41,828 bases of DNA from a virus: positions 1-41,828 of IMG/VR virus record IMGVR_UViG_3300017971_000453; one strand, given 5' to 3'. Numbering within the stretch: position 1 is the first letter of the stretch; each line of letters starts with the position of its first letter. Position numbers and translations under genes: made by a program. This document shows positions 3,196 through 39,944 of the stretch, piece after piece. A model generated the notes under the pieces. It searched no databases. It saw only the letters and a program-made list of their open reading frames with translations, and was not told where the DNA came from.

Positions 3196-3203
3196 GTAAT
3201 ATC

Positions 3204-3279: not shown

Positions 3280-3282
3280 TGT

Positions 3283-6392: not shown

Positions 6393-8474
6393 ATGCCAGC
6401 ACCAGCGGTACCGCAATCCACCTATGGGGCTATTCCGGAACGGAGTGGCCTCTTGCGTGTTTTAAACAATGATCAGCTTAACAAAATGGAATCGGATCAG
6501 AAGGCAGCCGAGTCCATGCAGAATAAGCCAGAGATCATTGGACTCGCAAATCACATAAAAAAGCATTGGGAATCTGCAAAAAATACCAAATGGTTCGTCG
6601 AGGAGCGCCTATTAAAATGCATTAGGCAGCGCAAGGGAAAATATGATCCCGACGACCTGGCCCATATCCGCAAGTTTGGTGGATCCCAAATCTTCATGAT
6701 GCTGACAAACGTTAAATGCAGGACGATCGAAGCCTGGATTAAGGACGTTATGTTGCCGGCCGGCGAAAAGCCATGGGGTGTATCGCCATCACCCGTCCCT
6801 GACCTCCCCGTCGAGCAAGAGATACGGCTCACCAAAAGGGTTCAATCCGAAGTAGCCATGATCCTGCAGTCCGTTCCAGATGCTGAAATTACTCCAGATA
6901 TGATTGATCAGCGCATGATGGATCTGCGTAATGAATTACAGCGCGAGGACCGTGCCCTGGCATCCCAGGAAGCTGAGAGAATAACAGACATTATCGAGGA
7001 TGGATTCAACCAGGGAGACTTTTACGGTGAGATTGCCAAGTTTATCAAGGACTTCGCAACATACCCAACAGCCTTTTTAAAGGGACCTTTTATCCGAAGA
7101 AAGAAGGATCTTAAATGGGTTGATGGCCCTGGTGGAAAACGTATACCTCAGGTCGATTGGGTCTATTACCGAGCGTGGAAATGTATCAGTCCGTTCGATA
7201 TGTACTTTGCAGCCGGCGCTAAAAATATAAACGATGGATATTGCCTGGAAAGACAGAGGCTTAGAGAGACAGACCTTGTAAAAATGAAGGGAGTCCCTGG
7301 CTTCGATACCAAGGCAATCGATAATGTCTTGATGGAATATCGTGGTGGAATGCTCCAGGATTGGCTTTGGACAGACCAGGAAAGAGCCAATATTGAATTC
7401 AGGCCAAACGAGCAAGAGGATCCACAGGCAGTTATCGAAACCCTCGAATATCATGGAGAAATCCCTGGGCAGTTGCTTATCGATTGGGGAATGGATAAGA
7501 ACGAGATAGAGAATCCAGCCGAGCCGGTACCATGTGTTTGCCTTATGGTGGGCCGCCATGTGATAATGGCCAGACTGAACGAGAACCCTCTTGGCACCAA
7601 ACCATATTATGGAGCCAGCTTCGATCAATCGAATGATTCGATATGGGGAGTTGCTCCACCTGAGCACATGGAAGATTGCCAGCGGGTATGCAACGCTACT
7701 GCCAGGGCTATGATTAATAACCTTGCAATCGCCTCCGGACCCCAGGTAGAAATGCACAAGGATAGAATAGATCCCGGGGATAACCTGGAAGAGCTCTATC
7801 CGTGGAAGATCTGGAAAACAAAGTCGGATCCGATGGGCAAGAATAATAAGGCGATTCATTTCTATCAGCCGAATGCGCTGACGGATATGTTGATGCAGGT
7901 TTACCAATACTTCTTTAACCAGGCCGGGGAGCAACTTGGCGTCCCTGCATATGAATCAGGAGTGGGTAGCGCTGCATCCGGCGCCGGCCAGACCGCACAT
8001 GGTTTATCGATGTTGATGTCGGCGGCCTCAAAGATAATGAAGGATGCCATAGTCGCGATAGACCAGAACGTGATTAAGCCTATTGTCAAATCGATGTGGA
8101 CCCATATCCTACTGTTCGATGATATCGATGCCAGGGGGGATATAGAGGTTGTGGCCAGGGCCAGCGAATACTTAATCCAGGCAGAGCAGCTACAGGCTCG
8201 CAGGGCTGAATTCCTTGCCTTAACCAATAACGATGTCGACATGGCGATTATCGGTTACGGTGGAAGGGCGAAGATCCTCAGGGAGAATGTTAAGGCCCTG
8301 AAAATGCAGGAGGAAATCATTCCAGAGGACGCTGACCTCGAAATGAATATCCAGCAAAACATGATGCAATCACAGATGGGTTTGCCTATGGGTGGTGGTG
8401 GTGGCTCCATGCCAGGCAGGGACCCGGGAGAAAATCCATTAATACCGCCACTCGAGCAGATGGCAAGAATATAA
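6393..8474 (+). CDS. Portal (head-tail connector) protein, 693 aa
   Basis: Forms the dodecameric ring at one capsid vertex through which DNA enters and leaves. The size and the mostly helical, Gln-rich composition fit podovirus portals. Residues about 430-500 (WGVAPPEHMEDCQRVCNATA ...) and 505-590 (GVGSAASGAGQTAHGLSMLM, then KIMKDAIVAIDQNVIKPIV) match the wing/stem helix pattern of this family. The C-terminus ends in a Gly/Met-rich tail. AGGGA precedes the ATG. It follows terL, as expected. Confidence 0.85.
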   Translation: MPAPAVPQSTYGAIPERSGLLRVLNNDQLNKMESDQKAAESMQNKPEIIGLANHIKKHWESAKNTKWFVEERLLKCIRQRKGKYDPDDLAHIRKFGGSQIFMMLTNVKCRTIEAWIKDVMLPAGEKPWGVSPSPVPDLPVEQEIRLTKRVQSEVAMILQSVPDAEITPDMIDQRMMDLRNELQREDRALASQEAERITDIIEDGFNQGDFYGEIAKFIKDFATYPTAFLKGPFIRRKKDLKWVDGPGGKRIPQVDWVYYRAWKCISPFDMYFAAGAKNINDGYCLERQRLRETDLVKMKGVPGFDTKAIDNVLMEYRGGMLQDWLWTDQERANIEFRPNEQEDPQAVIETLEYHGEIPGQLLIDWGMDKNEIENPAEPVPCVCLMVGRHVIMARLNENPLGTKPYYGASFDQSNDSIWGVAPPEHMEDCQRVCNATARAMINNLAIASGPQVEMHKDRIDPGDNLEELYPWKIWKTKSDPMGKNNKAIHFYQPNALTDMLMQVYQYFFNQAGEQLGVPAYESGVGSAASGAGQTAHGLSMLMSAASKIMKDAIVAIDQNVIKPIVKSMWTHILLFDDIDARGDIEVVARASEYLIQAEQLQARRAEFLALTNNDVDMAIIGYGGRAKILRENVKALKMQEEIIPEDADLEMNIQQNMMQSQMGLPMGGGGGSMPGRDPGENPLIPPLEQMARI

Positions 8475-14342: not shown

Positions 14343-14412
14343 GGCTTGACCGGCCTTTCTGATCCTCCCGCTACCGCAAATAATAATTCTCTAAATTTTG
14401 GGAGGAAATACA

Positions 14413-15330
14413 ATGATTCCAGCCGCCCCTGGTACCCCGCAATACTCCGGTACTTTTATTCCGGAGATTTGGTCGGGCAAATTGCTCGTTAAGTTTTACG
14501 CCGCGACCGTGATCGCTGCAATTTCGAATACGGATTATGAAGGTGAGATCAAGGATAAAGGCGACAAAGTCATTATCCGGACTGTGCCTGACATCATCAT
14601 CCGTGATTATAACAAAGGCCAGAGCCTGCAGATCCAACGGCCCGAAGCTCCGAATAAAGAGCTCCTGATCGATAAAGCCAAGTATTTCAATATGATCTGC
14701 GATGATATCGACAAGCATCAAACCGATATCGCCCTGATGGACTCCTGGTCCAGAGACGCCGGTCAGCAAATGAAGATCGTCGTCGATCGTGAATTCCTGG
14801 GAGACGTTTACGCCGATGCGGACGCAGCCAACCAAGGCGCCACCGCGGGTGCGGACTCCGCTTCCTTCGACCTTGGCGTGACCGGTGCCCCGGTTGCAAT
14901 TACCAAGGCCAACATTCTGGACTTCATCGTGGACGTCGGTACTGTCCTCGACGAACAGAATATTCCTGAGGACTCCAGATGGATGGTACTGCCTCCGTGG
15001 ATGTGCGGTATGATTCTGAAGTCCGACCTTAAGGATGCTTCCCTGGCCGGCGACGGCACCAGCATCCTGCGAAATGGACGGATCGGCATGATCGATCGGT
15101 TCACCATCTATGCCAGCAACTTGCTGACAAGCGTGGCCGATGGTGCATTCCGCGCCTATCATCCGATTGCCGGTCATAAGAGCGCGATTTCTTTCGCCGC
15201 CCAAATGACCAAAATGGAAAGCCTGCGAGCCGAAAGTACCTTTGGTACCCTGGTGCGCGGTCTGAACGTGTACGGTTACGAGGTTCTGAAACCGGAATCC
15301 CTGGTCGACATGTACGTTCGGAAGGGTTAA
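14413..15330 (+). CDS. Major capsid protein (HK97-fold type), 305 aa
   Basis: GGGAGGAAATACA precedes ATG 14413. Pattern features: an N-terminal FIPEIWSGKLLVKFYAATVI, an internal 'E-loop/spine' region (VIIRTVPDIIIRDYNKGQSL), a KITKANILDFIVDVGTVLDE-like spine helix, the SRWMVLPPWMCGMI strand and a C-terminal RGLNVYGYEVLKPESLV. These fit podovirus/siphovirus HK97-fold coat proteins. Codons look more biased (CTG, GAC, ATC) than in neighbours, as expected for the most abundant virion protein. It follows the scaffold. Confidence 0.88.
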   Translation: MIPAAPGTPQYSGTFIPEIWSGKLLVKFYAATVIAAISNTDYEGEIKDKGDKVIIRTVPDIIIRDYNKGQSLQIQRPEAPNKELLIDKAKYFNMICDDIDKHQTDIALMDSWSRDAGQQMKIVVDREFLGDVYADADAANQGATAGADSASFDLGVTGAPVAITKANILDFIVDVGTVLDEQNIPEDSRWMVLPPWMCGMILKSDLKDASLAGDGTSILRNGRIGMIDRFTIYASNLLTSVADGAFRAYHPIAGHKSAISFAAQMTKMESLRAESTFGTLVRGLNVYGYEVLKPESLVDMYVRKG

Positions 15331-16177: not shown

Positions 16178-16846
16178 ATGAAAGAAAAGCAAATTGTCAG
16201 GGCTAAATATCTTTTGCAGAGATTGCCTAATGGGAGTGAGCGGGTACATATCTGGACTGTCGGGCTTGCTCAGCGAGCAGACTGCTTTCCGATGTCTCCG
16301 GCGCAGTATGAAAAATGGCTTGAGGGAGATCTCGAAAAGAAAATTGCCGCTCGCGGTGGGAAAATTCGCCTGCGTGTAGACGAGGAAAAAGAGATCGAGG
16401 AGCTCGCGGCAGCAGAGGCCGCGGAGCCAGATCTTGAGATAAAGGTGGCTCAAACCGGATTGATAAAGGACGACGGTGAGAGCGAAACCCTTCCACCTGG
16501 CGAAGAGAATCCGGAAGTAGCCTTAACGCAGGAAGATGTCGCCGGTGAGATTGGTATCGACGATGATGGATATCTCGAGGAAAATGATATCCTATCGGTT
16601 GTTGCCCCGGCCGATGAAGGCACAAAAATTTCGGACGCCATGAAAACACAGGCCATGATGGCAGAGGATGAGATAAAGCGCCTTCATAAATTCAGAAAGC
16701 CGAATACCCTGGAAGCCTACATGCTGGAGAAATACAAGGTCAACCTGATACCGATGGATGATCTTCAGGAGCTCCGCGAGCAGGCGATCCTAATGATTGA
16801 AGAGCTCTCGAAGCACGGAAAGCTATTCATCAGAAGCGAGGATTAA
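16178..16846 (+). CDS. Hypothetical acidic structural protein, 222 aa
   Basis: AAGGGGGGTTATC precedes ATG. A basic N-terminal part (residues 1-60) is followed by a long acidic Glu/Asp/Ala-rich stretch (about 65-160) and a helical C-terminus (DLQELREQAILMIEELSKHG). It lies just before the gp11-like adaptor gene, so a connector or head-completion role is plausible. No homology is recognised. Confidence 0.6.
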   Translation: MKEKQIVRAKYLLQRLPNGSERVHIWTVGLAQRADCFPMSPAQYEKWLEGDLEKKIAARGGKIRLRVDEEKEIEELAAAEAAEPDLEIKVAQTGLIKDDGESETLPPGEENPEVALTQEDVAGEIGIDDDGYLEENDILSVVAPADEGTKISDAMKTQAMMAEDEIKRLHKFRKPNTLEAYMLEKYKVNLIPMDDLQELREQAILMIEELSKHGKLFIRSED

Positions 16847-16847
16847 T

Positions 16848-17591
16848 ATGGCAAATATAGGATTCCTTGCCGGATGGCAAGACGAGGTCGCTAAATATTG
16901 CAAGGGGATAGATAACGCGAATTACCAGACCCTATTGCTGGACGAGATCCGCGACCTCATGAGGGACTTTTGTAAGCGGACTGCCTTGTGGTGGTACGAT
17001 GTATCGTTCGATGTTATCGCCGGGACGAATTATTATAAACTGAGCGCATTAATTCCTCAGGAGCCGGACGACGACGCTGCAGATATAGTCCTTGTCGAGA
17101 GTGTAAAGTACAAGTCAGATGGCGAGGATTCTGATTCATACCGCGACCTTCCTCCTCTCAGGGCGTGGGTTGAGAACGTACCTGGAAAGAATTCCGGAGG
17201 ATGGCAATACTTCACAGGAAGCGAGCCAACAAATTTTTATTACGATGAGCTCGAAGAGACTTTATTACTTTATCCGACTCCAGAATTGGATTCCGCTCCA
17301 GATGGGATTGAGGCGAGATTGATATTGATGCCTGGTCATGAAGCTATCGAATTTCCGGACTTTTTTTACAAGCAGTATAAAACTGAGCTCGGGATCGGGA
17401 TAGCCGCTAACCTAATGCAACTCACAAATAAACCGTGGTCCAATGAAGAGCTCGGGAAGATTAAAGGGGCTGAATATGATTCGTGGGTTACCGAGGCGAA
17501 GAGCAAAAAGCAATCGGGCTATACCCGTCGGACTACTCAGGTTCAATTCCCGCATTTCGGAGGATCCCGCGGAAGCTCCTGGGTATTCTAA
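16848..17591 (+). CDS. Head-tail adaptor (T7 gp11-like), 247 aa
   Basis: Start at ATG 16848 with GCGAGGA upstream. An N-terminal helix ends RDFCKRTALWWYDVSFDVIA (residues about 40-59), then 'TNYYKLSALIP', a P-rich turn, a 'LLLYPTPELDS' strand, a small 'ARLILMPGHEAIEFPDFF' segment, a KQYKTELGIGIAANLMQLTN helix and 'KPWSN'. This order of 'LW..d..v..G...Y.l' , 'L.LyP.P' , 'P..ip.fl...y...i..g....L......PW' is typical of podovirus tail-tube A/adaptor proteins that dock on the portal. Confidence 0.75.
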   Translation: MANIGFLAGWQDEVAKYCKGIDNANYQTLLLDEIRDLMRDFCKRTALWWYDVSFDVIAGTNYYKLSALIPQEPDDDAADIVLVESVKYKSDGEDSDSYRDLPPLRAWVENVPGKNSGGWQYFTGSEPTNFYYDELEETLLLYPTPELDSAPDGIEARLILMPGHEAIEFPDFFYKQYKTELGIGIAANLMQLTNKPWSNEELGKIKGAEYDSWVTEAKSKKQSGYTRRTTQVQFPHFGGSRGSSWVF

Positions 17592-20771: not shown

Positions 20772-22489
20772 TGGCCCAAAAAGATTGGGAAAAACGCATG
20801 TATGTGCCGGCACAGGTGTTCCCTGACCAGGCGCGACAGCCATCTGCAAAAGAGAAATGGTCGGCCGTAACAACGGTCTTGCCAGAGCAGGCAGAGTTCA
20901 CTCCCGAGATTCCCACCGCTGAAAGCAATTCTTTGAGCTCCGATCTATTGAAGCAATCTGAGCACAAAAAGCCTTATAAGTCAAAGGGTTACGAGCAAAT
21001 GGAATATGAGCTCGAGCCGCCTCCTGGGTTTTCTTCTGTGCCTCCTGGATGGGTACCGCCTCCAGGAGTTCCATGGCCGACCCCTGGTGGTGGGCCTATC
21101 GGTGGTGGGCTTCCATTCATATTTGTTTTCGATATCGATCCGGTTGTCGTTACAATATCTTCTGACCCACAATGGTCTGCTGTTCAGGATGTTTGCCCAG
21201 GGACATGGACTCTTATTGACCTCCAGCCGACACATGAAGTTGTAAATGTTGAGCTCGTTTCGCCGCCGACAGGTACGAGATTCAGGTACCCTGGAGCGTC
21301 GAAAAGATATATAGAGGTCCTGATCCCGGGCAACATTGCATGGGATAACCTATTGAGAATACGGGCTTATATGGAGGCAGACAACCCAGGCGGGATTATA
21401 AATCCTGTGCCTGGAGACTCTGTCGCTAATATAGATATAGCATCCTTCCAGGATGAAAAATGCCCGAGCCATTATCTTGACATAAAGGTTGCGGTCAACA
21501 CAGGCGTTGGGACTTACACGAGATCGTTTGTTTGGGATATGTGGCGAGAAGAGATACCGCTTGATATTCCTGATGGTATCGGCGGCACATTAACTCTTCC
21601 CGTGCTCGATGCCTCGCTCGCATACTGGCGTGGTCTTGTACCTTCGATCGGAGCAAAGGATGTTACGATCGGAAGGAGTTGTGCGTTTACACAGGACGTC
21701 CTACCTGCGTGTGATACCGGACTAAATGGTATCGGAGACGACTATACAGACGTCGTCTATTGGCGCTGTGGTGGATCTCAGTTTTATGATAGCGCTGGAT
21801 CATGCGAGGTGATTTGCTCATTTTGTAATGATGCACCGCCGCCGGTCGTTATAGGGAATTGCTATACGACGATTACGAGGAGCGAGCCGCTGCTTACCGT
21901 TCCATCAGATATCGGATCTGGAAAGTTTGCTTATGGGTATAGCGTTACAGAATATATTTATGAGCAGGTTTTCATGATGGAAACAGTCGATTTGTGGTTT
22001 GAGGCAAACGTTGAATCTGGTGGTGCATGCGTTGACACAGGTACAATTGTTCGGTTGCAGTCAGACGTTTCATGGTATATCGACGTCCAGGGGGATACAT
22101 TTGGTTCTGGCGCTGAAACTCCAGACAGATATATATCCCTTTTGTCTGGAAATAACGTTACCATATCGAGCGACTTTTATAATAACCTTCTCGACGCTCC
22201 GGAGAATCCGGACTCCCTCATTCACATTGTAGCCTTTGATCATAAGGTGGAAGATATCGGCGGCGGCAATCCGACATTCTATGAAGAATGCTATGCCGAT
22301 CTTTATTATGATCATACTGGATTTATTCATAATAATCAATTAAATCGTGCGTTTGAAGATGTCAGAAAGGCAGCATTCGAGGCAATGATCCAAACGATAA
22401 TTGATGATGCAAAGACTGCGTTTCCTACATACACAAGGATAGGGCTCACATTCACCACTCAATTTCACCAGGGGGTATATAAAGTATGA
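20771..22489 (+). CDS. Hypothetical virion protein with proline-rich linker, 572 aa
   Basis: TAATG overlap with the nozzle gene. Residues 1-75 are polar, with an extended Pro/Gly-rich stretch at about 77-115 (LEPPPGFSSVPPGWVPPPGV), then an all-beta body with scattered Cys (CSFCNDAPPPVVIGNC). The last 100 residues alternate helix and strand. The flexible linker and beta body suggest a tail appendage protein. No catalytic motif or family is recognised. ATGA overlap with the following gene. Confidence 0.6.
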   Translation: MAQKDWEKRMYVPAQVFPDQARQPSAKEKWSAVTTVLPEQAEFTPEIPTAESNSLSSDLLKQSEHKKPYKSKGYEQMEYELEPPPGFSSVPPGWVPPPGVPWPTPGGGPIGGGLPFIFVFDIDPVVVTISSDPQWSAVQDVCPGTWTLIDLQPTHEVVNVELVSPPTGTRFRYPGASKRYIEVLIPGNIAWDNLLRIRAYMEADNPGGIINPVPGDSVANIDIASFQDEKCPSHYLDIKVAVNTGVGTYTRSFVWDMWREEIPLDIPDGIGGTLTLPVLDASLAYWRGLVPSIGAKDVTIGRSCAFTQDVLPACDTGLNGIGDDYTDVVYWRCGGSQFYDSAGSCEVICSFCNDAPPPVVIGNCYTTITRSEPLLTVPSDIGSGKFAYGYSVTEYIYEQVFMMETVDLWFEANVESGGACVDTGTIVRLQSDVSWYIDVQGDTFGSGAETPDRYISLLSGNNVTISSDFYNNLLDAPENPDSLIHIVAFDHKVEDIGGGNPTFYEECYADLYYDHTGFIHNNQLNRAFEDVRKAAFEAMIQTIIDDAKTAFPTYTRIGLTFTTQFHQGVYKV

Positions 22490-22881
22490 GATGCATAGCG
22501 AGATTAAAGAGTTCACATAAATTTTGCAAGGAATCTATGTTAAGATTACTTACTGATTTTATTGAAGATATCGAAGAGCACGGATATCATATTGTCGAGG
22601 ACGCAATAAAGGGATTAAGAATGACAGACGTCATGCCTGTGAAGAGCTCGGTATGGGCGACGACAGATGGAACGTGTCCTGAATGCGGATCTGGAGTAGC
22701 AGTCTTTGAATTAAACAAGAATCCGAGGTTCATGGTGGAGGGTATGAACACAATGATTGATTGCAATAATACAAATTGTGGATGGGGATATTTCACAAAA
22801 GTTAGTATTAGGTCAATCATGACGGACATAAAAAGAGCCGAGGTTTCTGGAAAAGCCTTTGATTTTACACAGTATCAATGA
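22486..22881 (+). CDS. Zinc-ribbon-containing hypothetical protein, 131 aa
   Basis: ATGA overlap with the preceding gene gives coupling. The N-terminal half is helical (MLRLLTDFIEDIEEHGYHIV). Residues about 64-105 hold GTCPECGSG and IDCNNTNCGWGYF, together a CxxC...C-x4-C metal site. Such a potential regulator or nucleic-acid-binding protein is unusual inside a tail gene run. Family unknown. Confidence 0.6.
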   Translation: MRCIARLKSSHKFCKESMLRLLTDFIEDIEEHGYHIVEDAIKGLRMTDVMPVKSSVWATTDGTCPECGSGVAVFELNKNPRFMVEGMNTMIDCNNTNCGWGYFTKVSIRSIMTDIKRAEVSGKAFDFTQYQ

Positions 22882-22932: not shown

Positions 22933-23814
22933 ATGGATAATGAAGAAAGATATGGCGCCATCCCGGGACCTACCGGTGGTGGTGGTTCCGGATTAGTAAG
23001 TCGTGCCGGTGGTGGTGGAAGCGACGCCGATATCAATAGATCCTTGAATGAAATGTCGGACAGGTATCGCAAAACCGCTGCAGGCCTTGCTATTATGGAA
23101 AGCTCCCCGCAGACTTCCGGTGGTGGGTCGAATGTGACCCAGGTTATAGCTCAGCCGAGCAGGCAAGCTCAAGCGGATCCATATGCATTCTTACGGCAAC
23201 CGTCGAGGCAATCCTCATCGAGTAGATCGTATAGCGTTGGAAGCGCCGGAGGTCCAGGTGTAATTCTTGACAGGCCTCTTGAGAAGCCGACGTTCCAGGC
23301 GACTCCGTATCCGGACGTCCCAAAATATGTTGCTCCGGAATACAAGCCGCCGGAGGAGGACAAGGGGTATGAGCGTGCGAAAAGGCAAGAGCTCGTTGGC
23401 AACCAGGCGGCACAGCTTAGGCAGGCGACCTCTGAGCAAATGCTACAGAATAGATCTATTGACAATCCAGCCCTTCGCCGGCAATTGGCCGGAGAATCTG
23501 TAAAGGGTTACGGGCAGGCCCTCGGTAGTATTTATGATACTTCAGCGAGAACCGCTATGGCTGCAGGCCAGCAAAAGCGCAGAGACGACATGGCAATCTA
23601 TAACGCCAAACATTCGGTGTTATCTGGTGAGGCCATGATAAATTATAAGAATGAAGTCAATAGCTTAGTCCAAAACTGGATGCAGGAAGCACAGGCAGCC
23701 AGAGATGAATACGCAATCGATCTTGCAAATTATCAGGCACAACCGCTCGCGCAAAGGGTTGGCCAGGATACGCCACAAAATAGTAGGATCGCGTATGGAC
23801 TAAGATTAGCTTAA
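22933..23814 (+). CDS. Putative internal virion protein, 293 aa
   Basis: GTGAGG precedes ATG. The N-terminal half is Gly/Ser-rich and probably disordered (GPTGGGGSGLVSRAGGGGSD); residues about 150-280 are helical with Gln-rich coiled-coil character (NQAAQLRQATSEQMLQNRSI; ARTAMAAGQQKRRDDMAIYN). Position before two further Gln/Ala-rich proteins, of which the last is giant, recalls T7 gp14-gp15-gp16, the ejection proteins. No direct homology is seen, so the call rests on layout and composition. Confidence 0.55.
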   Translation: MDNEERYGAIPGPTGGGGSGLVSRAGGGGSDADINRSLNEMSDRYRKTAAGLAIMESSPQTSGGGSNVTQVIAQPSRQAQADPYAFLRQPSRQSSSSRSYSVGSAGGPGVILDRPLEKPTFQATPYPDVPKYVAPEYKPPEEDKGYERAKRQELVGNQAAQLRQATSEQMLQNRSIDNPALRRQLAGESVKGYGQALGSIYDTSARTAMAAGQQKRRDDMAIYNAKHSVLSGEAMINYKNEVNSLVQNWMQEAQAARDEYAIDLANYQAQPLAQRVGQDTPQNSRIAYGLRLA

Positions 23815-23831: not shown

Positions 23832-24995
23832 ATGGCTCGTTTAATACCATCACATGGAGAAGAGTATGATGTGGCACAGTTTTACCCGCCAATATCTACT
23901 TTAGGTTACGATGCATCCAGGGCGCCGGCAATACCGCCGCCAACAGATTTGGTTGCAACACATGAACCAGTTGCGATGCCAGATCCAAGATTGACGATGC
24001 CTTCGCCGAAGGGGGATATCTCGCCCATTCCTCAGCAGCCGGATGCCGGTGGTGGTGTTGTCCCTGGTCCAGAAGTATTCGAGAAACCAAAGTCAATCAA
24101 GGAGTACCTCGAGCTTGCTCGACAGGCAGGACAGACCCCTACATTCACAGACGATCCTACCAGGCAAATGGCCGGGATGCAAGGTGGTCAATACCAGCAC
24201 GGTGCATTCCAGATAGATGATCGGACGCCGAGGTTGACACGAGACAATCTTGCCGGTGGTCCAGGACAGCCAGCAGCTTCTCCAACACCAGCCTCGCAAA
24301 AGTTTAATCTAAACAATCCATTGGCAGACCCCCTGGTTGTTGCAAAGGAGGCCCTCGCTGGACAGTTGGACGATATTTGGGAAATGGTTGCACCCGGGAA
24401 GCCTAAGCATTCCGCGACAGATAAGGAGCTACAGCAATTCCAAAAGCTTGTCAAGGAGCGCCACGAGGCCCTTGTGAAAGCGGCAGACGATCGGTTTGAT
24501 AGGTTTGATAAGTTGACAAAAAACTTTTCAAAAGAATCCGTATCTGAGGCGTTAAAGTCCGGAGACGTTACAAAACTGGAGAGAATCAAGAAGGCTGCAG
24601 GAGAGGTAGACAAAAATAAAATTTGGGACGACATGGTCAAAGAGGTAATGACCGATGCAAAGGAAGATGGTATCGATCTTGCACCGGCCGAGTTAATGCA
24701 GCGTGCTGCAGAATATTACAAAGAATATATGGACGGACTTGATGCCGCCATAAATGAAACAAAGGCGAGGGTTCCGGCCCAGGGTTCTCAAATTACAAAC
24801 GGCCAGGAAGCGCCTCCAGGAGCCGCCATTCCAGAGCCAGGCTATTCGACAGCCGGCGGGATGGCAATGGCACAACAGGCGAAACCAACGCCAGCGCAAA
24901 TGCTCGAGTATGCGAGGTCATTAAAGCGTGCTAACCCAAAGATTTCTGATGCAGAAATAGCACAGGGGCTTAGGACCAGATTCCCTGGTTATTAA
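23832..24995 (+). CDS. Putative internal virion/ejection protein, 387 aa
   Basis: GGAGGGTTAC precedes ATG. The first 160 residues are Pro/Gly/Gln-rich and disordered, then long helices (residues about 185-310; LQQFQKLVKERHEALVKAAD). The C-terminus has a small helix-turn pattern, MLEYARSLKRANPKISDAEI then AQGLRTRFPGY, of the type found at the ends of virion proteins that contact the ejection machinery. Lies between the 293-aa protein and the giant polyvalent protein. Confidence 0.55.
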   Translation: MARLIPSHGEEYDVAQFYPPISTLGYDASRAPAIPPPTDLVATHEPVAMPDPRLTMPSPKGDISPIPQQPDAGGGVVPGPEVFEKPKSIKEYLELARQAGQTPTFTDDPTRQMAGMQGGQYQHGAFQIDDRTPRLTRDNLAGGPGQPAASPTPASQKFNLNNPLADPLVVAKEALAGQLDDIWEMVAPGKPKHSATDKELQQFQKLVKERHEALVKAADDRFDRFDKLTKNFSKESVSEALKSGDVTKLERIKKAAGEVDKNKIWDDMVKEVMTDAKEDGIDLAPAELMQRAAEYYKEYMDGLDAAINETKARVPAQGSQITNGQEAPPGAAIPEPGYSTAGGMAMAQQAKPTPAQMLEYARSLKRANPKISDAEIAQGLRTRFPGY

Positions 24996-25016: not shown

Positions 25017-28000
25017 ATGTCTGATTTCTATGATAAATTCGTAGCAGATAATCTGCGCGAAGATCCCACCCCTACACCAGAGTTGCCTACCATGCCTCCA
25101 GAGGGGGCGATCCCTACACCAGAATCAAATGCGCCAGTTGCCCCACCTGGTCCAGATGCATACGACCAGTTTGTCGCCAATGTCAGGGACGATATCGAAG
25201 TCCCTTGGATACAGACAAAGCCAAAATTGGAAATCGGTATAAGCGCTGCAATGCAAAACTTGCCAATCCTCGCAAGGGCACCAATTGAAGCAATTTCAGG
25301 GGTGCGACCGCTATCTGAGATAACCGGTGGACAGGATCTTAGAAGCAAGGCCATCAAGGCTATTCTGCCAGAATATCTCGAGGACGTTGAGTTAGAGCGT
25401 CCCATGATTGAAACATCAAAGAATATTGCTCGTTCTGCGCCATGGCTCGGAAAAGGATTTATGGATGTAGCCGGATTCGATAGGGATAAGCCTTCCGTAA
25501 TACCGAGTAAATCAGATGGGTTATGGGATAAATTAACGTCGGCGACAACAGGTACGGTGGGCGCATTGGGCGATATGGCCTATGACGCCATTGGTGCGGC
25601 GTCAGAGTCAAAGAATTTAAAAAGGGATTTAAGATACATCCTTGACCTCGAAGAAAAAGACTCGTTCAAGCAATGGATTGAGAACACCGTTGGGATGGCG
25701 CCACAAATAGGAATGCAGATTCTCGCGCATAGGGCCGGCGGGAAGTTCCTCTCAGGCGCCGTGATGTTTGTAAATATTGCTGGTAATGCATACGAGGAAA
25801 ATATTTCGAATGGAGCCTCTCCAAAAGAGGCTATGGTTTCAGCGCTTATCAACGCCGGTATACAGGCGCCAATGGAGGCGTTATCATTCGGTTGGATGAT
25901 GCGTGCGCCTGGACTTGGTGCAGGTATAAAAAGGTTTATCGCTTCGAGATTGGTTAGCTCATTAACAGAGGGCGTTACTGAAACTCTGCAGGGTGTCCCT
26001 GATGAATTGACCGGACATTTTGCAATTGGTGAAAATAGAAAGAAATTTCTAAATGCCAATATAGAAGATCAAGCCGGAATGGTTTGGGACCTTTCCTTGA
26101 AGGGTATAAAGGAAGCTCTCCCCGAGGGTGCGGCCGCCGCCCCGTATGGTCTATTACTTGGTGGTGCTGACGCTAAACCGGTAGATGCTAAGGGCACAAA
26201 GGAAGCCGGCAAATTCAGGAAGGCATTCGATATGCTCACCGGGAAGCGTGACGAATCTGGTGAGCTCACCACGGTTAAGTCCTCGAGGGATGCGGCTGAA
26301 ATTCTCGATAAGGGAATAAAGGAGGCCCAGGCAGCGCAGGCAGCGCAAACACCTGGAGCGATACCTGAGCCAGCGGTTGAAGGCGCCGGGGTTATTCCTG
26401 GGCAGGAAATTACTCCAGAGGATATCGCCGCTATCGAGGAGCCAGTTGCCCCCGGGACAGGTCTGTTCGCCGAGAATAGGCCAGACGTACCGCCACCAAT
26501 ACCACCACAAGGTCCATTGCGGACCCCCGCTGAGAGGCAGCAATATATCCAGGGCCAGGAAACACCAGCACAGGCCAGGCAACGCCAGATTGACCAGACG
26601 ATGGGGGAAGAGGCTGTCGTCACAGAGCCTGCTCCAGAGCCAGCGGCTGAGCCCATCACGGCGCCGGCAGAAGCGCCAGCCATAGAGGCAGCACCGGTTA
26701 CGCCGGCCCAAATGGCCCAGGCAGTTATCGACACAACTCCCGCTGACGTTGAACAGGAAGCACCTGACCTGGTAAAGCGTGCGGCAGTAAAGCGGCAAAA
26801 GATGATCGAGGGTGAGGCCGCCGAAGAGCCAGCGGCGAAAAAGCCGGAGCGAATATCTCCTCCAGGGAAAAGGAATTTCTTCGAATTTCCAGACGGTACC
26901 AGAATAAGCGGTGCGACGTCCGGTGAGATTTACAATAAAGCCACCCCTGAACAGCGTGAAATGATGGAGTCTGGCGAGGCCCGGGAGGGCTTTGTGGATA
27001 AATTCGGGAAAAGAATTTATCGTGAAACACCGAGCGCTGGACCCGCGGTTCAAAAGGGTCCACAAAAAGTCACCACGGCAAAGCAGCTTAATGAAGCAGC
27101 CAGTATAACAGATCCTAATCCTACATACCAGGCAATAAAGGATGGCACCTACAGGAAGGGTGAAGCCGAGATCCATGGCATGCCTATTGTAATTGAGAAC
27201 GCGAAGGGATCGACCAGAAAAGAAAATGTGCCTCCAGGTAAAAAACCCTCATGGCGTGTTCGGATGAAAGCGGTTTATGGATACTTCAAAAAAGGTAGAA
27301 AATCAAAGGACGGAGACAATATCGATGTATTCGTCGGAGAAGATGTAACCTCCCCGAATGTTTACATTATCGATCAGTTGAATGAGGATGGTACATTCGA
27401 TGAACCAAAGGTAATGCTCGGGTATAAAACGAGGAAGCAGGCTCAGATGGCATACAGAGCCCATTATCCAAAGGGCTTTGATTTTAACAATATGCGTGTT
27501 ACCAAAAAGTCTGTTGACGAATTTAAAAAATGGCTCAAAGAGGGAGATCCTAAAAAGCCTCAGCCTGTCCAGGAAGTTATCGAAGCTCCAGTAAAAAAGA
27601 CTCCGGAGAACATCAAAGAGCATTACATCAAAATGTCTCAAAGATGGCCAGAGGAAATGCAATTAACCGAGGACGATTTTGATATTGTCGCGCCTAAGGA
27701 TGCAAGAAACGGAGAAGCGATTGTCGAATTCATGAAGGTTGTTTTTGGATTCGATAATGTTGTGTTCTTTAAAACAGACCATAAATTCCTGAATAACACG
27801 AATGGGAATACAATAACGATTAAGGATATCGATCGGGATAATGGATTCATATTTATAAATGTCCGGAACGAAACCCCTGGGCTGCAGGTTGCCGGCCATG
27901 AAATGGGCCACAGGATAGAAAAGACAATGCCAAAGAAATACGGGCTGTTAAAATCTATCCTATGGAAGATGAAGGATAAAAACGATTGGAGCGGATTTCT

Positions 28001-31000
28001 TAATAAAAAGAGAAACTTCTACGCGAAGCAGCTTTCAAGAAAAACTGGTACCCCGGTTGATCAATTAAAACAGAAGGATATCGAAGCCGCGGTATTCGAT
28101 GAATTCGTTCAAGAATTCCTGGGATCCTCCCTGTTCGATGAGAAATTCCTTGGCGAGGTAATGAAAGAGGACAAAACCCTTTTTGAGAGAATCGTCGAAA
28201 TGGTGTCAGACGTTATCAAGAAAATGGGGGATGCCCTTCTGGCTCAGCCAAAAAAATTCCAAAGGGTATATTTCGATGAGATCGAGACTGCCCAAAAGCT
28301 TATGGCCAAAATGGTTCGCCAGTATAATCAATATCGTGCCGGCGAATATACATCCGGCATGGGCGAATTCGATGTCTATGCTAAAGAAGTCCTGGATAAA
28401 ATAGAAGCCCCAAAACCAAAGGCAGATCTGATGGATTCGGATCTTGCTCAGAATATTGGTGCGCCCGGGCTTCCTGTTGGAGCCGCTGGTAACCCTGAGA
28501 TTTTATTTGATATTAAGGAAAGAGGGTGGGAAGTTGACTTCGAGAATGAAGAGTTTGGTGTAGTCAACAACCGGCTCAGCAAAGAGCTTGAAGCGTTCGA
28601 GACGCTGTTTGGCCCAACCATGAAGTCTGTGCAAGTCCCTGGAAAGTATGTGAAAAATAAGAGGGAGCTCACAAGATCTATTACCACCTATGATTTATTG
28701 GATGAAATTTATCGGGTGATTAAGGACGGGCAGGTCGCTAATCTATTGGATAAAACAAAAACGATCGAACAGATTGCAGACTCTAAAGGCCTCAGCGGAA
28801 AGGAGCGGACAAAATTCCTTGACCATCTGCATGGACTCCGGAATGGCAAGATGTATGATACCGAATCAAAGACGCAAACCCTTGGAAATAATGGTAAAGC
28901 TGGAATGTCGGCCGACTTCCTACTCGCGACATGCCATCCGACAACTCCATGCAAGGAGTGCTATGCGGCTGCCTCGATGATTAGAATGAGCGCCGTTAAA
29001 AAAGCGCTGAGATCCACCATACATATTTTGACAGATCCTAAGGGATGGGCAAAGATCGTTGCATCAGAGGTTATGGCAAAGGATAAGACCGAGCTCCCAT
29101 TTGTCAGGATGCTCGGATCCGGCGACCTTGTTACTGACGAACAGGTTGAGGGAATGAATGAATTGGCCAAATTGCTTGACCGGCCTATTCATATTTTTAG
29201 CCGGCACCATGATATGCTGAAAAAATTAAAGTCGCAACCAAACGCCCCGTTTATCAAAATGGGATCGATAGATGCAGATCTTTACAAATTTTATGGGCCG
29301 AAAAAACTCGCCGAGAACATGAAAAAGCACGGTATCGCGAATGCCTGGTTAATGACAGACAAGAGCGAGATAAAGGCAATGCAGGAATTGATGGATAAGG
29401 ACGCCCTGCAGCTTGTCCTCGCCGCCAGCAATGAGCTACACGATGCCCTTCCAGAGAATATGCGTAAGACCGGATGCCCATGCGACGCAGGAGAGCGCAC
29501 ATATTTCTTTAGCTGCAAACAATGTGCCCTGTCTGAGTCAGGATGCTTTATGGCATTCAGCGAATACGGTATCGATAAAAACGGGAAGCCATGGAAAATT
29601 ATGGATCCGAAGGCACCGAAAGATCTAACATCCATGACCGTATTCGTTACCGGGAAAGGTGCTAAGGCGAAAAGCCTCGGTGAGGTTTATATCGGAAGGC
29701 TGCAGAAATCTATTGAGCTTGTTAGGGGCAATATCAAAAAATTCATTCGCGGTGATTCTAAAAAGATCGCGATTAAAAATCTGCATTATCCAGACGATAT
29801 AACGTATGTCGATAATGTCGACGCTGCAAATGCCTGGGTAACGAACATGCTCGGGATGATTGAGGATGCTCGGAAATTTCAATCCTTCCTACTTCCTGGT
29901 GGTGAGATCCAGAATACAATAAAGTACGAAGAGGGGAAGCAGGTCGCAGCAGATCCTGAGTTTGACGTTATCGAAGATCCGAAGCTAATACCAAAAAAGA
30001 CCGTTAAGGCTTATAAGCTATTCACAGAAAAGGATGGAAAGCTATATCCCCTGTTTGTCAGGGCAAATGAAACCGTACCTGTTGGGAAATGGCTTGCGGC
30101 TGACGTCGGACCGATGGTTGGTGGAAAGGTAAAGTCGAAGATAGGGCAACTTGCATACCGCCCCGGGTGGCATTCCGGAGATATGCCTGTTGCTTCCCAT
30201 ATCGGAGGAAAGACAGACGCCAATTTGACAAAGCCGAATTACCGGCCAGACAACCAGGTATGGGCTGAGGTCGAGATATCGAACGATGTCGATTGGCAGT
30301 CAGAGGCAAACAAACGTGCCTCTGTAAGCAAGGCAGGGAAGATCATACCAAGGACCGCGCATATAACAGACCAGGTTCCAAAGGGCGGCCATTATCGTTA
30401 CAAGACAAACCAGACAATGGTCGGAGAGTGGTTGATCAGCGGTGAGATGAAGGTCAACAGAATCCTTACCGATGAAGAGGTGAAGGAAATAAACGATAAA
30501 TTTGGTGTTGCTGATCTTCCGAGAAAAGACGAGGTTTCTCCAAGCAACGTCGAAGAATTAATTACAAAACCTGTGAGAGACTTCGCTGCCGATATCCGCG
30601 CCCGGGTAGCAGACGGCGTCGCTGAAATGCGGGAAAAAGTTGCCGCCTATGATGGGTGGAGATTTGAGCCTGGCCAAAAGGTAAAGTCGAAACAAACCGG
30701 TAGGATGTTCAGGATAACAGCCAAGTCCTGGGATAATAGAAAAGATGAGCCGAGATATTTTTATGAAAGCCTCGATGGTACAGAGAAGGGCGCATTCATA
30801 GGTGATCGTGCTCACGAGAATATGATCGTCGTCGCCGGACCAATTGGTGTCGCTCCAATGGTCGAATTCGACTTTTATCCTGAGGATGCCACAGAGCTCG
30901 AGCGGGAGAACATAGCTCAAGAGCTTTATTTCCCGATAAAAACCGCGATCGATAATAAATTCGGATTCACAGATAAGGCGCCTGAGACATGGGAGTCCGC

Positions 31001-33983
31001 GAAGGAAGCCCTTGATAATTTTGTGAAAACTGGTGAAACAAATTCAGAGCTACTCGATGATATCGTCGATGATGCTATCGAGGGGTATGGATCATTCGAG
31101 GAGTTCGTCGACTCGAGGCTTGACGATATCGCGCCGGCTACCTGGGATGCAACCAGAGAGGACCGGACTCAAATTGCGGATTCCGCTGAACAGCTTATTA
31201 TAAAAACGATAAACAGGGAGATCTTGAATCCTGATCAAAGGGACGGCGCATACGAGGCCGCCATGGATGAGTTGAACGATTTTATCTATGACGACAATAC
31301 AGACCTGTCGACCCTTGATGGAATAATGAAGGATTCCGGATACGATAGCTTTAAGGACTTCGTCGATCAAACCTGGTACGATATGAATACGGTTGACGAT
31401 GTCCCGATAATCCCTGGCTTCGATACAGTTGAAATTATTGAAAAAGATGCGAAGGCTGTCATAGACGCGAAGATCGGAAGAGACGATGTCCCGATGCGGG
31501 AAAAGGTTGCTAAGTCCTGGAAATCATTCTGGAAAAATAGAGCAACCCTGATTGCAGACAGATTCGCACCAATAAAGGCACGCTTCGGGGAAGGTATTAT
31601 TTACATGCTACACCGCGGTATACCTGGTGCTCCGACGTCGGTCCTCGGCCAGCTTTTGCATGGGAAATTAAAATGGAATGCGGACGGGAATGTGCTTACT
31701 GTCGATACGAAAAACGAGGGATTTATTCCATGGGTTAAAAGCCTCGGTAAAGATGGCGAGAAATTTTTCTATTGGCTGGTTGTCAAAAGGGCAGAGGCCC
31801 TGGACGCAGAAGGCCGCGAGAAGCTTCTGGATAAAACTGACAGAGATATATTGATGAAATGGATAGGCGACCCAAAGGGTAAAAAATCATGGAATGAGAT
31901 TAATAAAGAATTCCAGGGATTTAACGATGCCATTCTTGATATAGCTCAGCAAGCCGGTTTAATAGATCCGGCTTCCAGGAAGCTATTCCAGCAAGAATTC
32001 TATATCCCGTTCTATCGCGTTTTCGAGGATGAGGAATCATCTAATGAATTCATAAAAGGCCCATTGCAGGGGTCAAAGTTTTTGTCCTCACAGATAAAAC
32101 GGCTCAAAGGTTCTGAAAAGAAAATCGGAGATCCCTTTGAAAATATTATGAAAAACTGGAATCATCTTATCGTCGAGAGTGTCAAGAACAAAGCTCGAGG
32201 TGATGCGTTCCGGAATGCTGTCGACCTTGGCCTTCCGAGTGGATACATGGCACTCGATGATGATGGTAATGAAATTGAAAAGCCCCTTATCGAAGAGGTC
32301 AAATGGTCAGATACCGTTAGATTCAAGGGTGTTGGAAAGGCTACCTTTATCGAGCAGAAAACAGGTGAGCCGGTGCTCGGGTTCAAGGATAAGGGAAAGA
32401 CCAGGTTTTTCAGGGTAAATGATCCGGAGCTATTTTCAGCAATGAGTTTGATGAGATCAATCAGGGCAGACAATATGCTCGTGAACGCCCTGAGATATCC
32501 AAAAAGATGGCTTACAATGGGAGCCACCTTTGGCCCTGCGTTCAAGGCTGCAAACTTCCTGAGGGACACGCTGCATACCGGGATGATATCAAACGACTTT
32601 ATACCATTCCTTGACTCAATAAAGGGTGTCGCGAAGATCGTATTTAAGGATAAGGACTACATAGAATATCTTGCTTCCGGACATGCGTTCGCTGGCTCTT
32701 ATGTAAGGGCAGATGATCCTAAGGCTGTTTCTAAATACCTCAAAGGTGTCTCTGAAAAGAAGATGCGCGGAAAGGTATGGAATGTTCTCGCCGCGCCATG
32801 GAGGCTTTGGGCTGAAATAGGAGAGGCCTCAGAGAACGCTGCAAGGGTACAGCTATACAGCAACCTTCGCAAAAAAGGAAAGACACAGCTTGAAGCCGCA
32901 TTCGGCGCCCGGGATATAATGGACTTCCAGATGTCTGGAACATCTGACAACCTTGCATTCTTTACAGCAGTCGTTCCATTCCTTAATGCAAGGATCCAGG
33001 GCCTGTATAAAATGGGCCGAGCGGCAAAAGAGAATCCGAAGGTTTTCGCCGGCAAAACCCTTGCGCTGGCCGCCCTGTCTTTGGCTGCCTGGGCAGCGTT
33101 CGCAGACGACGAAAGATATAAAGAGCTTGAGGATTGGGAGAAATGGCAATACTATAATTTTTGGATAGGAGATTGGCATATCCGTATACCGAAGCCTTTT
33201 GAGACTGGTGTCATAGGATCAACCCTATGGACCGCTGCAGCAGACTCCGCTGTCGGCAATGAGTCGTGGACGTACATATTAAAAACGATGGGCCACGCAG
33301 TAATGGATACGTTCGCTTTCAATCCGGTCCCACAGGCGGCCATACCGATTGCAGAACAGATCTTTAACAAGAGCATGTTCACCGGCCGACAAATCGAGGG
33401 AGAGCGGATTGGCAAATTATCTCCAGGGCTTAGGGCAGAGCCATGGACCTCTGAAACATTCAAGGCCCTTGGTGAGATAGCCGGGATACCGCCAAAAAGA
33501 GCGGAGGAGTTCGTAAAGGGGTATTTCGCGACATATGTCAACCTTGCTCTCTTCTTTACGGATCCGGCCGCCAGGTGGTTGATGGATTACCCTGAGCGAC
33601 CGACAAAGAGGGTAGACGACTACCCAATGATCGGTAGGTTCTTGCGCCAGGCCGACAATCCCCGTTACACCAAATATATTAGTAGGTTATATGAAATAAC
33701 AAAAGAGGCAGACCAGCTTTTCGCAGACGTCAAACATCTTAATATGATAGGCGATTATGAGGCTGCCAAGGCGATCAAGGAAAAGCACCGGAAAAAGCTT
33801 TCAATGCGGAAGAGATTCCATAAGGAAAGAAGCCGGCTCACAGATCTAAACAAAAAAATACGCAAAGCCTGGCTTAGCGATACTATGGACGGTGACGAAA
33901 AGAAGGAAAAAATTGACAGGTGGACCGGACAGAAGAACGAGATTGTCCGGAACGTCATGAAGTTATATGAAGATAAGAAATAA
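25017..33983 (+). CDS. Giant polyvalent virion protein: InPase-like, metallopeptidase, gp88-like and LPD38-like regions, 2988 aa
   Basis: GAGAGGTACTTAA precedes ATG. Layout: residues 1-60 Pro-rich with two FVA(D)N-type repeats; 60-400 helical with a hydrophobic stretch; 400-690 Ala/Pro/Glu-rich linker; about 702-848 an InPase (phage pyrophosphatase-like) domain with KGRKSKDGDNIDVFVGEDV and DGTFDEPKVMLGYKTRKQA; about 870-1130 a zincin-like peptidase with HEMGH (961-965); about 1242-1620 a Cys-rich gp88-like domain; about 1664-1827 an unnamed domain seen in other polyvalent proteins; about 1878-1950 a beta region; 2480-2860 LPD38-like with PFLNARIQGL and a membrane helix near 2680; C-terminal coiled coil. 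Polyvalent proteins are known to be injected with phage DNA. The size and position fit a T7 gp16 counterpart. Confidence 0.8.
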   Translation: MSDFYDKFVADNLREDPTPTPELPTMPPEGAIPTPESNAPVAPPGPDAYDQFVANVRDDIEVPWIQTKPKLEIGISAAMQNLPILARAPIEAISGVRPLSEITGGQDLRSKAIKAILPEYLEDVELERPMIETSKNIARSAPWLGKGFMDVAGFDRDKPSVIPSKSDGLWDKLTSATTGTVGALGDMAYDAIGAASESKNLKRDLRYILDLEEKDSFKQWIENTVGMAPQIGMQILAHRAGGKFLSGAVMFVNIAGNAYEENISNGASPKEAMVSALINAGIQAPMEALSFGWMMRAPGLGAGIKRFIASRLVSSLTEGVTETLQGVPDELTGHFAIGENRKKFLNANIEDQAGMVWDLSLKGIKEALPEGAAAAPYGLLLGGADAKPVDAKGTKEAGKFRKAFDMLTGKRDESGELTTVKSSRDAAEILDKGIKEAQAAQAAQTPGAIPEPAVEGAGVIPGQEITPEDIAAIEEPVAPGTGLFAENRPDVPPPIPPQGPLRTPAERQQYIQGQETPAQARQRQIDQTMGEEAVVTEPAPEPAAEPITAPAEAPAIEAAPVTPAQMAQAVIDTTPADVEQEAPDLVKRAAVKRQKMIEGEAAEEPAAKKPERISPPGKRNFFEFPDGTRISGATSGEIYNKATPEQREMMESGEAREGFVDKFGKRIYRETPSAGPAVQKGPQKVTTAKQLNEAASITDPNPTYQAIKDGTYRKGEAEIHGMPIVIENAKGSTRKENVPPGKKPSWRVRMKAVYGYFKKGRKSKDGDNIDVFVGEDVTSPNVYIIDQLNEDGTFDEPKVMLGYKTRKQAQMAYRAHYPKGFDFNNMRVTKKSVDEFKKWLKEGDPKKPQPVQEVIEAPVKKTPENIKEHYIKMSQRWPEEMQLTEDDFDIVAPKDARNGEAIVEFMKVVFGFDNVVFFKTDHKFLNNTNGNTITIKDIDRDNGFIFINVRNETPGLQVAGHEMGHRIEKTMPKKYGLLKSILWKMKDKNDWSGFLNKKRNFYAKQLSRKTGTPVDQLKQKDIEAAVFDEFVQEFLGSSLFDEKFLGEVMKEDKTLFERIVEMVSDVIKKMGDALLAQPKKFQRVYFDEIETAQKLMAKMVRQYNQYRAGEYTSGMGEFDVYAKEVLDKIEAPKPKADLMDSDLAQNIGAPGLPVGAAGNPEILFDIKERGWEVDFENEEFGVVNNRLSKELEAFETLFGPTMKSVQVPGKYVKNKRELTRSITTYDLLDEIYRVIKDGQVANLLDKTKTIEQIADSKGLSGKERTKFLDHLHGLRNGKMYDTESKTQTLGNNGKAGMSADFLLATCHPTTPCKECYAAASMIRMSAVKKALRSTIHILTDPKGWAKIVASEVMAKDKTELPFVRMLGSGDLVTDEQVEGMNELAKLLDRPIHIFSRHHDMLKKLKSQPNAPFIKMGSIDADLYKFYGPKKLAENMKKHGIANAWLMTDKSEIKAMQELMDKDALQLVLAASNELHDALPENMRKTGCPCDAGERTYFFSCKQCALSESGCFMAFSEYGIDKNGKPWKIMDPKAPKDLTSMTVFVTGKGAKAKSLGEVYIGRLQKSIELVRGNIKKFIRGDSKKIAIKNLHYPDDITYVDNVDAANAWVTNMLGMIEDARKFQSFLLPGGEIQNTIKYEEGKQVAADPEFDVIEDPKLIPKKTVKAYKLFTEKDGKLYPLFVRANETVPVGKWLAADVGPMVGGKVKSKIGQLAYRPGWHSGDMPVASHIGGKTDANLTKPNYRPDNQVWAEVEISNDVDWQSEANKRASVSKAGKIIPRTAHITDQVPKGGHYRYKTNQTMVGEWLISGEMKVNRILTDEEVKEINDKFGVADLPRKDEVSPSNVEELITKPVRDFAADIRARVADGVAEMREKVAAYDGWRFEPGQKVKSKQTGRMFRITAKSWDNRKDEPRYFYESLDGTEKGAFIGDRAHENMIVVAGPIGVAPMVEFDFYPEDATELERENIAQELYFPIKTAIDNKFGFTDKAPETWESAKEALDNFVKTGETNSELLDDIVDDAIEGYGSFEEFVDSRLDDIAPATWDATREDRTQIADSAEQLIIKTINREILNPDQRDGAYEAAMDELNDFIYDDNTDLSTLDGIMKDSGYDSFKDFVDQTWYDMNTVDDVPIIPGFDTVEIIEKDAKAVIDAKIGRDDVPMREKVAKSWKSFWKNRATLIADRFAPIKARFGEGIIYMLHRGIPGAPTSVLGQLLHGKLKWNADGNVLTVDTKNEGFIPWVKSLGKDGEKFFYWLVVKRAEALDAEGREKLLDKTDRDILMKWIGDPKGKKSWNEINKEFQGFNDAILDIAQQAGLIDPASRKLFQQEFYIPFYRVFEDEESSNEFIKGPLQGSKFLSSQIKRLKGSEKKIGDPFENIMKNWNHLIVESVKNKARGDAFRNAVDLGLPSGYMALDDDGNEIEKPLIEEVKWSDTVRFKGVGKATFIEQKTGEPVLGFKDKGKTRFFRVNDPELFSAMSLMRSIRADNMLVNALRYPKRWLTMGATFGPAFKAANFLRDTLHTGMISNDFIPFLDSIKGVAKIVFKDKDYIEYLASGHAFAGSYVRADDPKAVSKYLKGVSEKKMRGKVWNVLAAPWRLWAEIGEASENAARVQLYSNLRKKGKTQLEAAFGARDIMDFQMSGTSDNLAFFTAVVPFLNARIQGLYKMGRAAKENPKVFAGKTLALAALSLAAWAAFADDERYKELEDWEKWQYYNFWIGDWHIRIPKPFETGVIGSTLWTAAADSAVGNESWTYILKTMGHAVMDTFAFNPVPQAAIPIAEQIFNKSMFTGRQIEGERIGKLSPGLRAEPWTSETFKALGEIAGIPPKRAEEFVKGYFATYVNLALFFTDPAARWLMDYPERPTKRVDDYPMIGRFLRQADNPRYTKYISRLYEITKEADQLFADVKHLNMIGDYEAAKAIKEKHRKKLSMRKRFHKERSRLTDLNKKIRKAWLSDTMDGDEKKEKIDRWTGQKNEIVRNVMKLYEDKK

Positions 33984-38031: not shown

Positions 38032-38293
38032 TTTTCGCTTTCCTTTCTGCCTTTCTTAGCAAAGCATCATATCTGTTTTTGTCTGCCTGAGACATGGATA
38101 GGCCATTCTTTCCGCGCTGGTAAGTCTTTGTTTTTATAACTACTTTCTCGTCACCTGTTTCGGGGTCCTTCTCAAGGGACAGGTATGTTGACTCGAACAC
38201 CCTTCTACCCTTTAGCCTTGCTTTTGTTTCCTCATTCGCGAGCTTCCTGCGCTTCTTATAATCCTCGAAGGATTCATCCGGTAGGCGTTTCAT
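38006..38293 (-). CDS. Small basic phage protein, 95 aa
   Basis: Start overlaps the stop of the RecT-like gene (TGATG). The product is a highly charged helix-rich chain beginning [20 protein letters not shown], a style seen in many phages next to recombination genes. It contains a short strand region (VVIKTKTYQRGKNGLS) and a basic C-terminal helix (NRYDALLRKAERKAKN). Function unknown. Confidence 0.65.
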   Translation of the reverse strand: MKRLPDESFEDYKKRRKLANEETKARLKGRRVFESTYLSLEKDPETGDEKVVIKTKTYQRGKNGLSMSQADKNRYDALLRKAERKAKNADENTKH

Positions 38294-39942: not shown

Positions 39943-39944
39943 TT

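Follow-up and report, generated by a model that had tools for sequence, protein, structure and literature searches.

Polyvalent proteins of phages, among whose domains are InPase, MPTase and LPD38, were proposed in 2017 to be packaged and injected (Iyer et al.; PMC5512222). The giant protein described here is encoded on the window, by which we mean the whole stretch of DNA that was analysed, an uncultivated virus record of 41,828 bp, and it shares both this domain vocabulary and the late-gene context. Our reading differs from the available text of Iyer et al. in that LPD38 is not treated there as part of an ejection conduit, and the larger conserved C-terminal unit that we call the chassis is not described.

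Giants of a similar kind are annotated as 'DarB-like antirestriction' proteins in Bcep22-like phages. JC1 gp69, a 'DarB-like' protein of 4515 aa, has an LT-like region at residues 80-192, LPD3, and LPD38 near its C-terminus (4195-4401). The accessible part of the report finds 51 unique peptides of it in podovirus virions purified on CsCl, and a score second to that of the capsid protein (PMC9144972). BcepIL02 gp70 (4667 aa), whose gene closes the virion block ahead of lysis, ends in the same chassis as the window protein (residues 3804-4664, E 8e-46) and carries a transglycosylase-like stretch at 62-166. Unlike the window protein, these giants combine an N-terminal transglycosylase with a methylase/helicase-type payload, and BcepIL02 gp70 has no match to our InPase, MPTase and nt2 profiles.

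Electron microscopy shows PTXU04 to be a podovirus, and the available portion of its description reports that peptide mass fingerprinting assigned gp7, 10, 11 and 12, and not gp25 (PMC6563267). The chassis is homologous in PTXU04 gp25 (29% identity over 778 aa, model TM 0.82), which differs from the window protein in its length of 2197 aa and in having LPD38 as its sole Pfam domain. According to the accessible text of a second study gp25 is a Fit gene and is essential, with a large loss of EOP upon knock-down, and gp20, 22, 23, 24, 25, 28 or 40, when expressed, either proved toxic or disturbed infection (PMC11879866). The PTXU04 relative HelliStehle is described in the part of the source at hand as very sensitive to restriction-modification.

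Podovirus gp16 is described, in the available text, as the product of a larger ORF that follows gp14- and gp15-like genes within a single cluster, with putative transmembrane helices (PMC8954989). T7 gp16 resembles the chassis proteins in its gene slot (in HTVC034P), in being the largest and last ejection gene and in being mostly helical, and BcepIL02 gp70 resembles its layout of a transglycosylase and a C-domain. It differs from the chassis in that there is no sequence or PDB fold match and, as far as its available description goes, in having two predicted hydrophobic helices instead of one. The late block of SU10 closes with the ejection proteins gp20-24, identified by mass spectrometry and with the largest last, according to the accessible part of the report. 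The window shares the type of portal and adaptor with SU10, as well as small genes and then the largest (gp24, 1473 aa, in SU10) at the close of the late block, but gp20-24 have no sequence match to the chassis. The N4 virion RNA polymerase is another giant with several domains that a podovirus ejects, and it has an MPTase domain according to the available text of Iyer et al.; it is a different enzyme. Finally, the Pa193 portal gp19 (PDB 9b41) is a virion protein with an InPase-like domain (residues 638-761), in this case fused to the portal and falling in a region (residues 529-765) described as without density in the accessible text.

Packaged polyvalent giants and the virion presence of one homologue are already known. 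Within a literature search of limited reach, covering some sources in part, we found neither the chassis/payload reading nor LPD38 described as an ejection-conduit chassis. We suggest that the giant of the window is probably the large last DNA-ejection protein of an SU10-like short-tailed phage, similar to T7 gp16 and carrying a payload.

The giant gene and its late block

The giant gene takes up 8967 of the 41,828 bases (21%), in agreement with the initial annotation, and is an unbroken frame of 2988 codons preceded by a plausible ribosome-binding site (Table 1). The plus-strand late block runs from terminase, SU10-type portal, head protein and SU10-type adaptor through hypothetical genes of 1059 and 572 aa to genes of 131, 293 and 387 aa, and then to the giant, further genes, lysozyme and holin. 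The giant stands beside virion genes, with portal, adaptor and head protein upstream and lysozyme and holin downstream.

The small proteins in front of the giant had been called virion-like, a description that was not confirmed: the 131-, 293- and 387-aa proteins have no match in PHROG or Pfam. Homologues of the 131- and 293-aa genes are found at the matching place in two other loci, L004 and L020; in L020 the match is strong for the 293-aa gene and weak for the 131-aa gene. For the 387-aa gene, iteration gave homologues in two loci. We also compared the neighbours in the window with the SU10 proteins by sequence search and found no match. By eye, the cysteine pairs of the 131-aa protein (CPEC and CNNTNC) look zinc-ribbon-like.

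Table 1. Positions of the giant gene, its parts and the late genes upstream of it in the window
Feature	Position	Strand	Evidence
SU10-type portal	6393..8474	+	PF23899, 50.7 bits
Major head protein	14398..15330	+	phrog_267, E 7.7e-62
SU10-type adaptor	16797..17591	+	PF24175, 29.9 bits (cut-off 27)
131-aa gene, late block	22486..22881	+	no PHROG or Pfam family; homologue in L004, weak in L020
293-aa gene	22933..23814	+	candidate small ejection protein by position; homologues in L004, L020
387-aa gene, directly before the giant	23832..24995	+	ejection candidate by position; two loci with homologues after iteration
Giant protein gene, 2988 aa	25017..33983	+	unbroken ORF; GAGAGG ~9 nt 5' of ATG
Gly/Ala-rich N-terminal segment, residues 235-322	25719..25982	+	profile nt2; common to 31 of 92 chassis giants
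InPase domain, residues 707-841	27135..27539	+	Pfam 134 bits (cut-off 26.8), E 4.1e-39
MPTase-like domain, residues 906-1102	27732..28322	+	HEMGH at 961-965, Glu 1029
GP88-like region, residues 1300-1411	28914..29249	+	22.4 bits, below cut-off 24.4
phrog_30118 domain, residues 1663-1843	30003..30545	+	E 4.5e-64
C-terminal chassis, residues 2141-2987	31437..33977	+	profile of A2; AlphaFold2 pLDDT 83.7, pTM 0.84
Hydrophobic helix, residues 2676-2694	33042..33098	+	hydropathy
LPD38, residues 2698-2871, within chassis	33108..33629	+	Pfam 101.5 bits (cut-off 27), E 8.2e-29

A constant C-terminal chassis and exchanged payloads

The LPD38-like C-terminus that had been recognised before is present well above the Pfam cut-off, but the match of ~174 residues lies within a larger conserved unit of ~850 aa, as seen from the alignments A1 (13 sequences) and A2 (44 sequences). 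With the last 812 residues of the giant and a limit of E<=1e-5, tblastn matched 51 phage records, and coverage was at least 80% in 45 of them. The membrane helix previously placed in this part was found again as one hydrophobic helix, called from hydropathy alone. It is the sole 19-mer of the giant with a mean hydropathy of at least 1.4, and in the aligned C-terminal family it is the most hydrophobic stretch (mean 1.48, next 0.71). The final five residues of the chassis family have a mean net charge of +0.2 over 83 proteins and are not notably basic.

Structure prediction in pieces, which had been proposed as a check, worked well for the chassis and poorly for residues 1230-1855, which span GP88 and phrog_30118 (pLDDT 54, pTM 0.37). 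The composite alignments A5 and A7, both with misplaced domain fragments, were kept out of folding. In BFVD the chassis model has 62 matches at E<=0.001, including PTXU04 gp25 (TM 0.82) and others that bear the names LT_GEWL, RelA/SpoT and type I restriction methylase. Foldseek gave no PDB match of this model at E<=0.001, a result that is compatible with fold homology to gp16, and the profile of the chassis alignment found nothing convincing in the PDB. In VIA the best Z was 7.6 across 60 residues, and the rows include a chain of the cyanophage A4 pre-ejectosome (Z 7.0, 59 residues); these matches are confined to the last ~100 residues and we took them as generic helices. We also asked whether the chassis is homologous to T7 gp14-16 or SU10 gp20-24 and rejected this, with no match by hmmsearch or hhalign.

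Our survey set comprises 92 giants, the window protein and 91 from other loci. In total 78 of them come from an IMG/VR scan with the chassis as query, being the best 80 of at least 574 without the duplicates L018 and L019, and L002, L003 and L005 were excluded because they duplicate the window or L004. Since the chassis was the scan query, its presence is by design for most giants, but its C-terminal position is not. The chassis ends at most 23 aa from the C-terminus in all 83 complete ORFs, a count that excludes nine ORFs running off the end of a contig. Of the 92 giants, 31 have the N-terminal segment, 38 an InPase and 9 an MPTase. A check of whether domain order is kept in relatives had been proposed earlier: the order of segment, enzyme and chassis is never broken among the 14 giants that have both an N-terminal segment and an enzyme. 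A non-redundant set of 50, which omits proteins that are more than 80% identical, shorter than 900 aa or below 80 bits to the window protein, shows the chassis at the C-terminus in 42 of 42 complete proteins, behind payloads of 361-3215 aa, with the segment in 18, InPase in 12 and MPTase in 8.

The domains in front of the chassis are exchanged between giants. In 23 payloads including that of the window, Pfam finds InPase (6), ART-PolyVal (5), LPD5, LPD1, RadC and MTS (4 each), LPD3 and N6_Mtase (3 each), MuF_C (2), and ddrB-ParB and SLT (1 each). A phmmer search of the 92 giants found no transglycosylase, yet Pfam has SLT in one of these 23 payloads. Of 38 chassis records, 23 have an SU10-type portal (21 above the cut-off), a count made on chassis records alone. 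The absence of the PF10145 tape-measure family (0 of 37 chassis records) was considered as a sign of a short tail, but it is uninformative because the family is also found in 0 of 14 other records, three of them with LPD38 (the window, G038 and G042).

Two of the collected loci look irregular. The record IMGVR_UViG_3300028840_004913 (103,145 bp) holds together an identical copy of the right part of the window (L002) and a 71% relative (L004), and it is probably a chimaeric or concatenated assembly. In L042 the chassis gene is apparently split into ORFs of 1853, 103, 271 and 992 aa, either as a broken gene or as an assembly error.

The payload of the window protein

The giant had been described as a polyvalent protein, and it does contain at least two domains of disparate activity, with InPase and LPD38 above their cut-offs, an MPTase-type motif, and GP88 near the cut-off. 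The InPase assignment (PF18823) is clear from the Pfam score. D65, D70, D86, D95 and E96 of alignment A11 are invariant in 15 sequences, and by family score and acidic residues the domain of the giant is a type I InPase of polyvalent proteins. There is a precedent for an InPase carried by a virion protein, since such a domain is also attached to the Pa193 portal.

The HEMGH metallopeptidase has a conserved motif, and no named peptidase family is matched convincingly. HExxH and a later Glu (E1029 in the window) are kept in 24 of 24 rows of alignment A8, a zincin-like arrangement. The pattern used to retrieve 15 of these rows already contains GHE..H, so that for them the Glu alone counts as independent; the other nine (the window, L004, L007, L020, L023, L027, L045, L063 and L079) were chosen without the motif. 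In a shuffled giant HExxH is expected 0.03 times by chance. Pfam matches no peptidase family in the HEMGH region of the window protein; M48 is matched in 6 of the 24 MPTase members (best E 0.013), the window not being among them, and the MPTase profile finds only weak matches in the PDB (M3B, E 0.17; neutral protease, E 0.91).

The gp88-like cluster stays below the cut-off in the window (PF17338, 22.4-22.7 bits against 24.4), but the record of the orthologue (G001/L005), which is 71% identical to the giant in the best segment, reaches 30 bits. The domain that the initial annotation had left unnamed is phrog_30118. It is fused in larger frames in 11 of 16 occurrences, while the other 5 are short frames of 219-272 codons, and it is also present on two plasmid records, NC_017073.1 and NC_014389.1 (Selenomonas, Butyrivibrio). 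GP88 occurs in 4 of the 10 records with phrog_30118 (3 above the GP88 cut-off) and in 0 of 40 without it, for which Fisher's p is 0.0009 on records that were not randomly chosen. The two are found together in L130, L137, L148 and the window (28914-30545). GP88 and phrog_30118 may be a functional pair.

The poor model of residues 1230-1855 gave 0 PDB matches at E<=0.001, and the phrog_30118 alignment profile found nothing convincing in the PDB. Residues 61-400 and 851-1241 gave 0 tblastn matches to phage records at E<=0.01. Among the loci examined, the complete payload of InPase, MPTase, GP88 and phrog_30118 is found only in the window and its close relative L004/L005. No domain of the giant has a demonstrated anti-defence role or target, and the sensitivity of HelliStehle to restriction-modification likewise gives no support to the defence-countering role first suggested.

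DNA ejection, passenger or assembly

The giant had been placed in the position of T7 gp14-gp16. Relatives agree with this placement, but the window's own small neighbours match no family. In the Pelagibacter phage HTVC034P the order is tail tubular A, tail tubular B, acetyltransferase, an internal-virion-protein-B-like gene (phrog_418, E 1.6e-5), a 580-aa gene, the chassis gene and tail fibre. This is close to the order 11, 12, 13, 14, 15, 16, 17 of the T7 record, with the chassis gene in the gene 16 slot. The second gene upstream of the chassis gene in FGH is phrog_598 'DNA ejection' (E 1.5e-46), and the gene directly upstream in Pascal, an 'internal virion protein with endolysin domain' in PHROGs, has a transglycosylase related to T7 gp16 and SU10 gp20. 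In a PHROG search with the HTVC034P chassis protein and nine genes from upstream positions, each of these three phages gave one ejection or internal-virion match. None of the three small upstream genes of PTXU04 matches a PHROG, and ten upstream genes from eight IMG/VR loci were unmatched (6), 'virion structural protein' (3) or terminase (1), with no ejection family matched. Of 91 loci, 32 have a member of the BcepIL02 gp66 family, annotated as virion-associated, at a median of 2.0 kb upstream of the giant, and none has one downstream.

The ejection role first suggested for the giant gains from the SU10-type late block and from the virion homologue in JC1, but not from sequence homology to T7 gp14-16 or SU10 gp20-24. 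The giant is probably both a part for DNA entry and an enzyme vehicle, because its conserved end matches virion proteins and the enzymes at its front are exchangeable. We propose that the chassis of ~850 residues with its hydrophobic helix would be packaged in the head, exit with or ahead of the DNA and probably engage the inner membrane. It would carry in the N-terminal payload, consisting of the Gly/Ala-rich segment and the domains InPase, metallopeptidase, GP88 and phrog_30118. Cleavage by the peptidase may release the payload, as Iyer et al. suggest for domains of this kind, and the targets of the remaining enzymes would be nucleotides or early processes in the host.

The main alternative is that the giant is a DarB-like effector, packaged and injected, that rides with the DNA; the conduit would then be built from the small upstream proteins, with the chassis serving only as a tag for packaging and ejection. 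The Dar-type precedent in P1, the proposal in the available text of Iyer et al., the highly varied enzyme payloads and the JC1 protein, both DarB-like by annotation and present in virions in the accessible report, are all in keeping with this. We nevertheless consider it rather unlikely, as the HTVC034P chassis gene occupies the gp16 slot, BcepIL02 gp70 has an N-terminal transglycosylase, the chassis is much bigger than a tag requires, and PTXU04 gp25 is essential in the available account yet has no Pfam enzyme. Pfam finds no enzyme in the chassis protein of HTVC034P (gp44) either, and a defence-only role fits poorly with the essentiality and with such enzyme-free chassis proteins.

Essentiality cannot separate ejection from assembly, because the knock-down of PTXU04 gp25 cuts synthesis in the producing cell. 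The same phenotype would be expected if the chassis organised head, portal or tail and the enzymes acted in the producing cell with no ejection at all, and the late-gene position suits this explanation too. MPTase-, ART-, methylase- and InPase-type payloads have no evident assembly role, so that the variety of enzymes fits poorly with a purely structural protein, and together with the ejection-gene slot and neighbours in relatives this makes it improbable. That the giant belongs to a late intracellular enzyme complex which is never packaged would suit the lack of virion data for the window phage and the missing assignment of gp25 in the available PTXU04 fingerprinting, but is highly improbable given the peptides of its homologue in the virions of JC1.

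A gp16-like ejection protein with cargo is the simplest joint reading. In a wider form, which we regard as an even call, the LPD38 giants are one cargo-carrying ejection family, in which a chassis like the C-terminal part of gp16 belongs to the DNA conduit and the N-terminus is an exchange site for enzymes, namely pyrophosphatase, ADP-ribosyltransferase, methylase/helicase, ParB-like nuclease, RadC, transglycosylase and GP88/phrog_30118. The conduit would deliver these effectors, and in some members the peptidase would release them. If this is true, hundreds of giants annotated as 'antirestriction' or 'hypothetical' (at least 574 IMG/VR stretches) would be ejection proteins with exchangeable cargo, and the essentiality of a supposed defence-countering gene in PTXU04 would be accounted for. 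The chassis would be a sequence marker for proteins delivered at the first moments of infection, and conduit and cargo roles would become experimentally separable.

Outside the late block we observed five tRNA genes (Tyr, Ile, Thr, Gln and Pro) at 2376-3359 of the window and, on the minus strand at 38293-41232, a RecT-like annealing gene together with a weak PDDEXK nuclease match below the cut-off.
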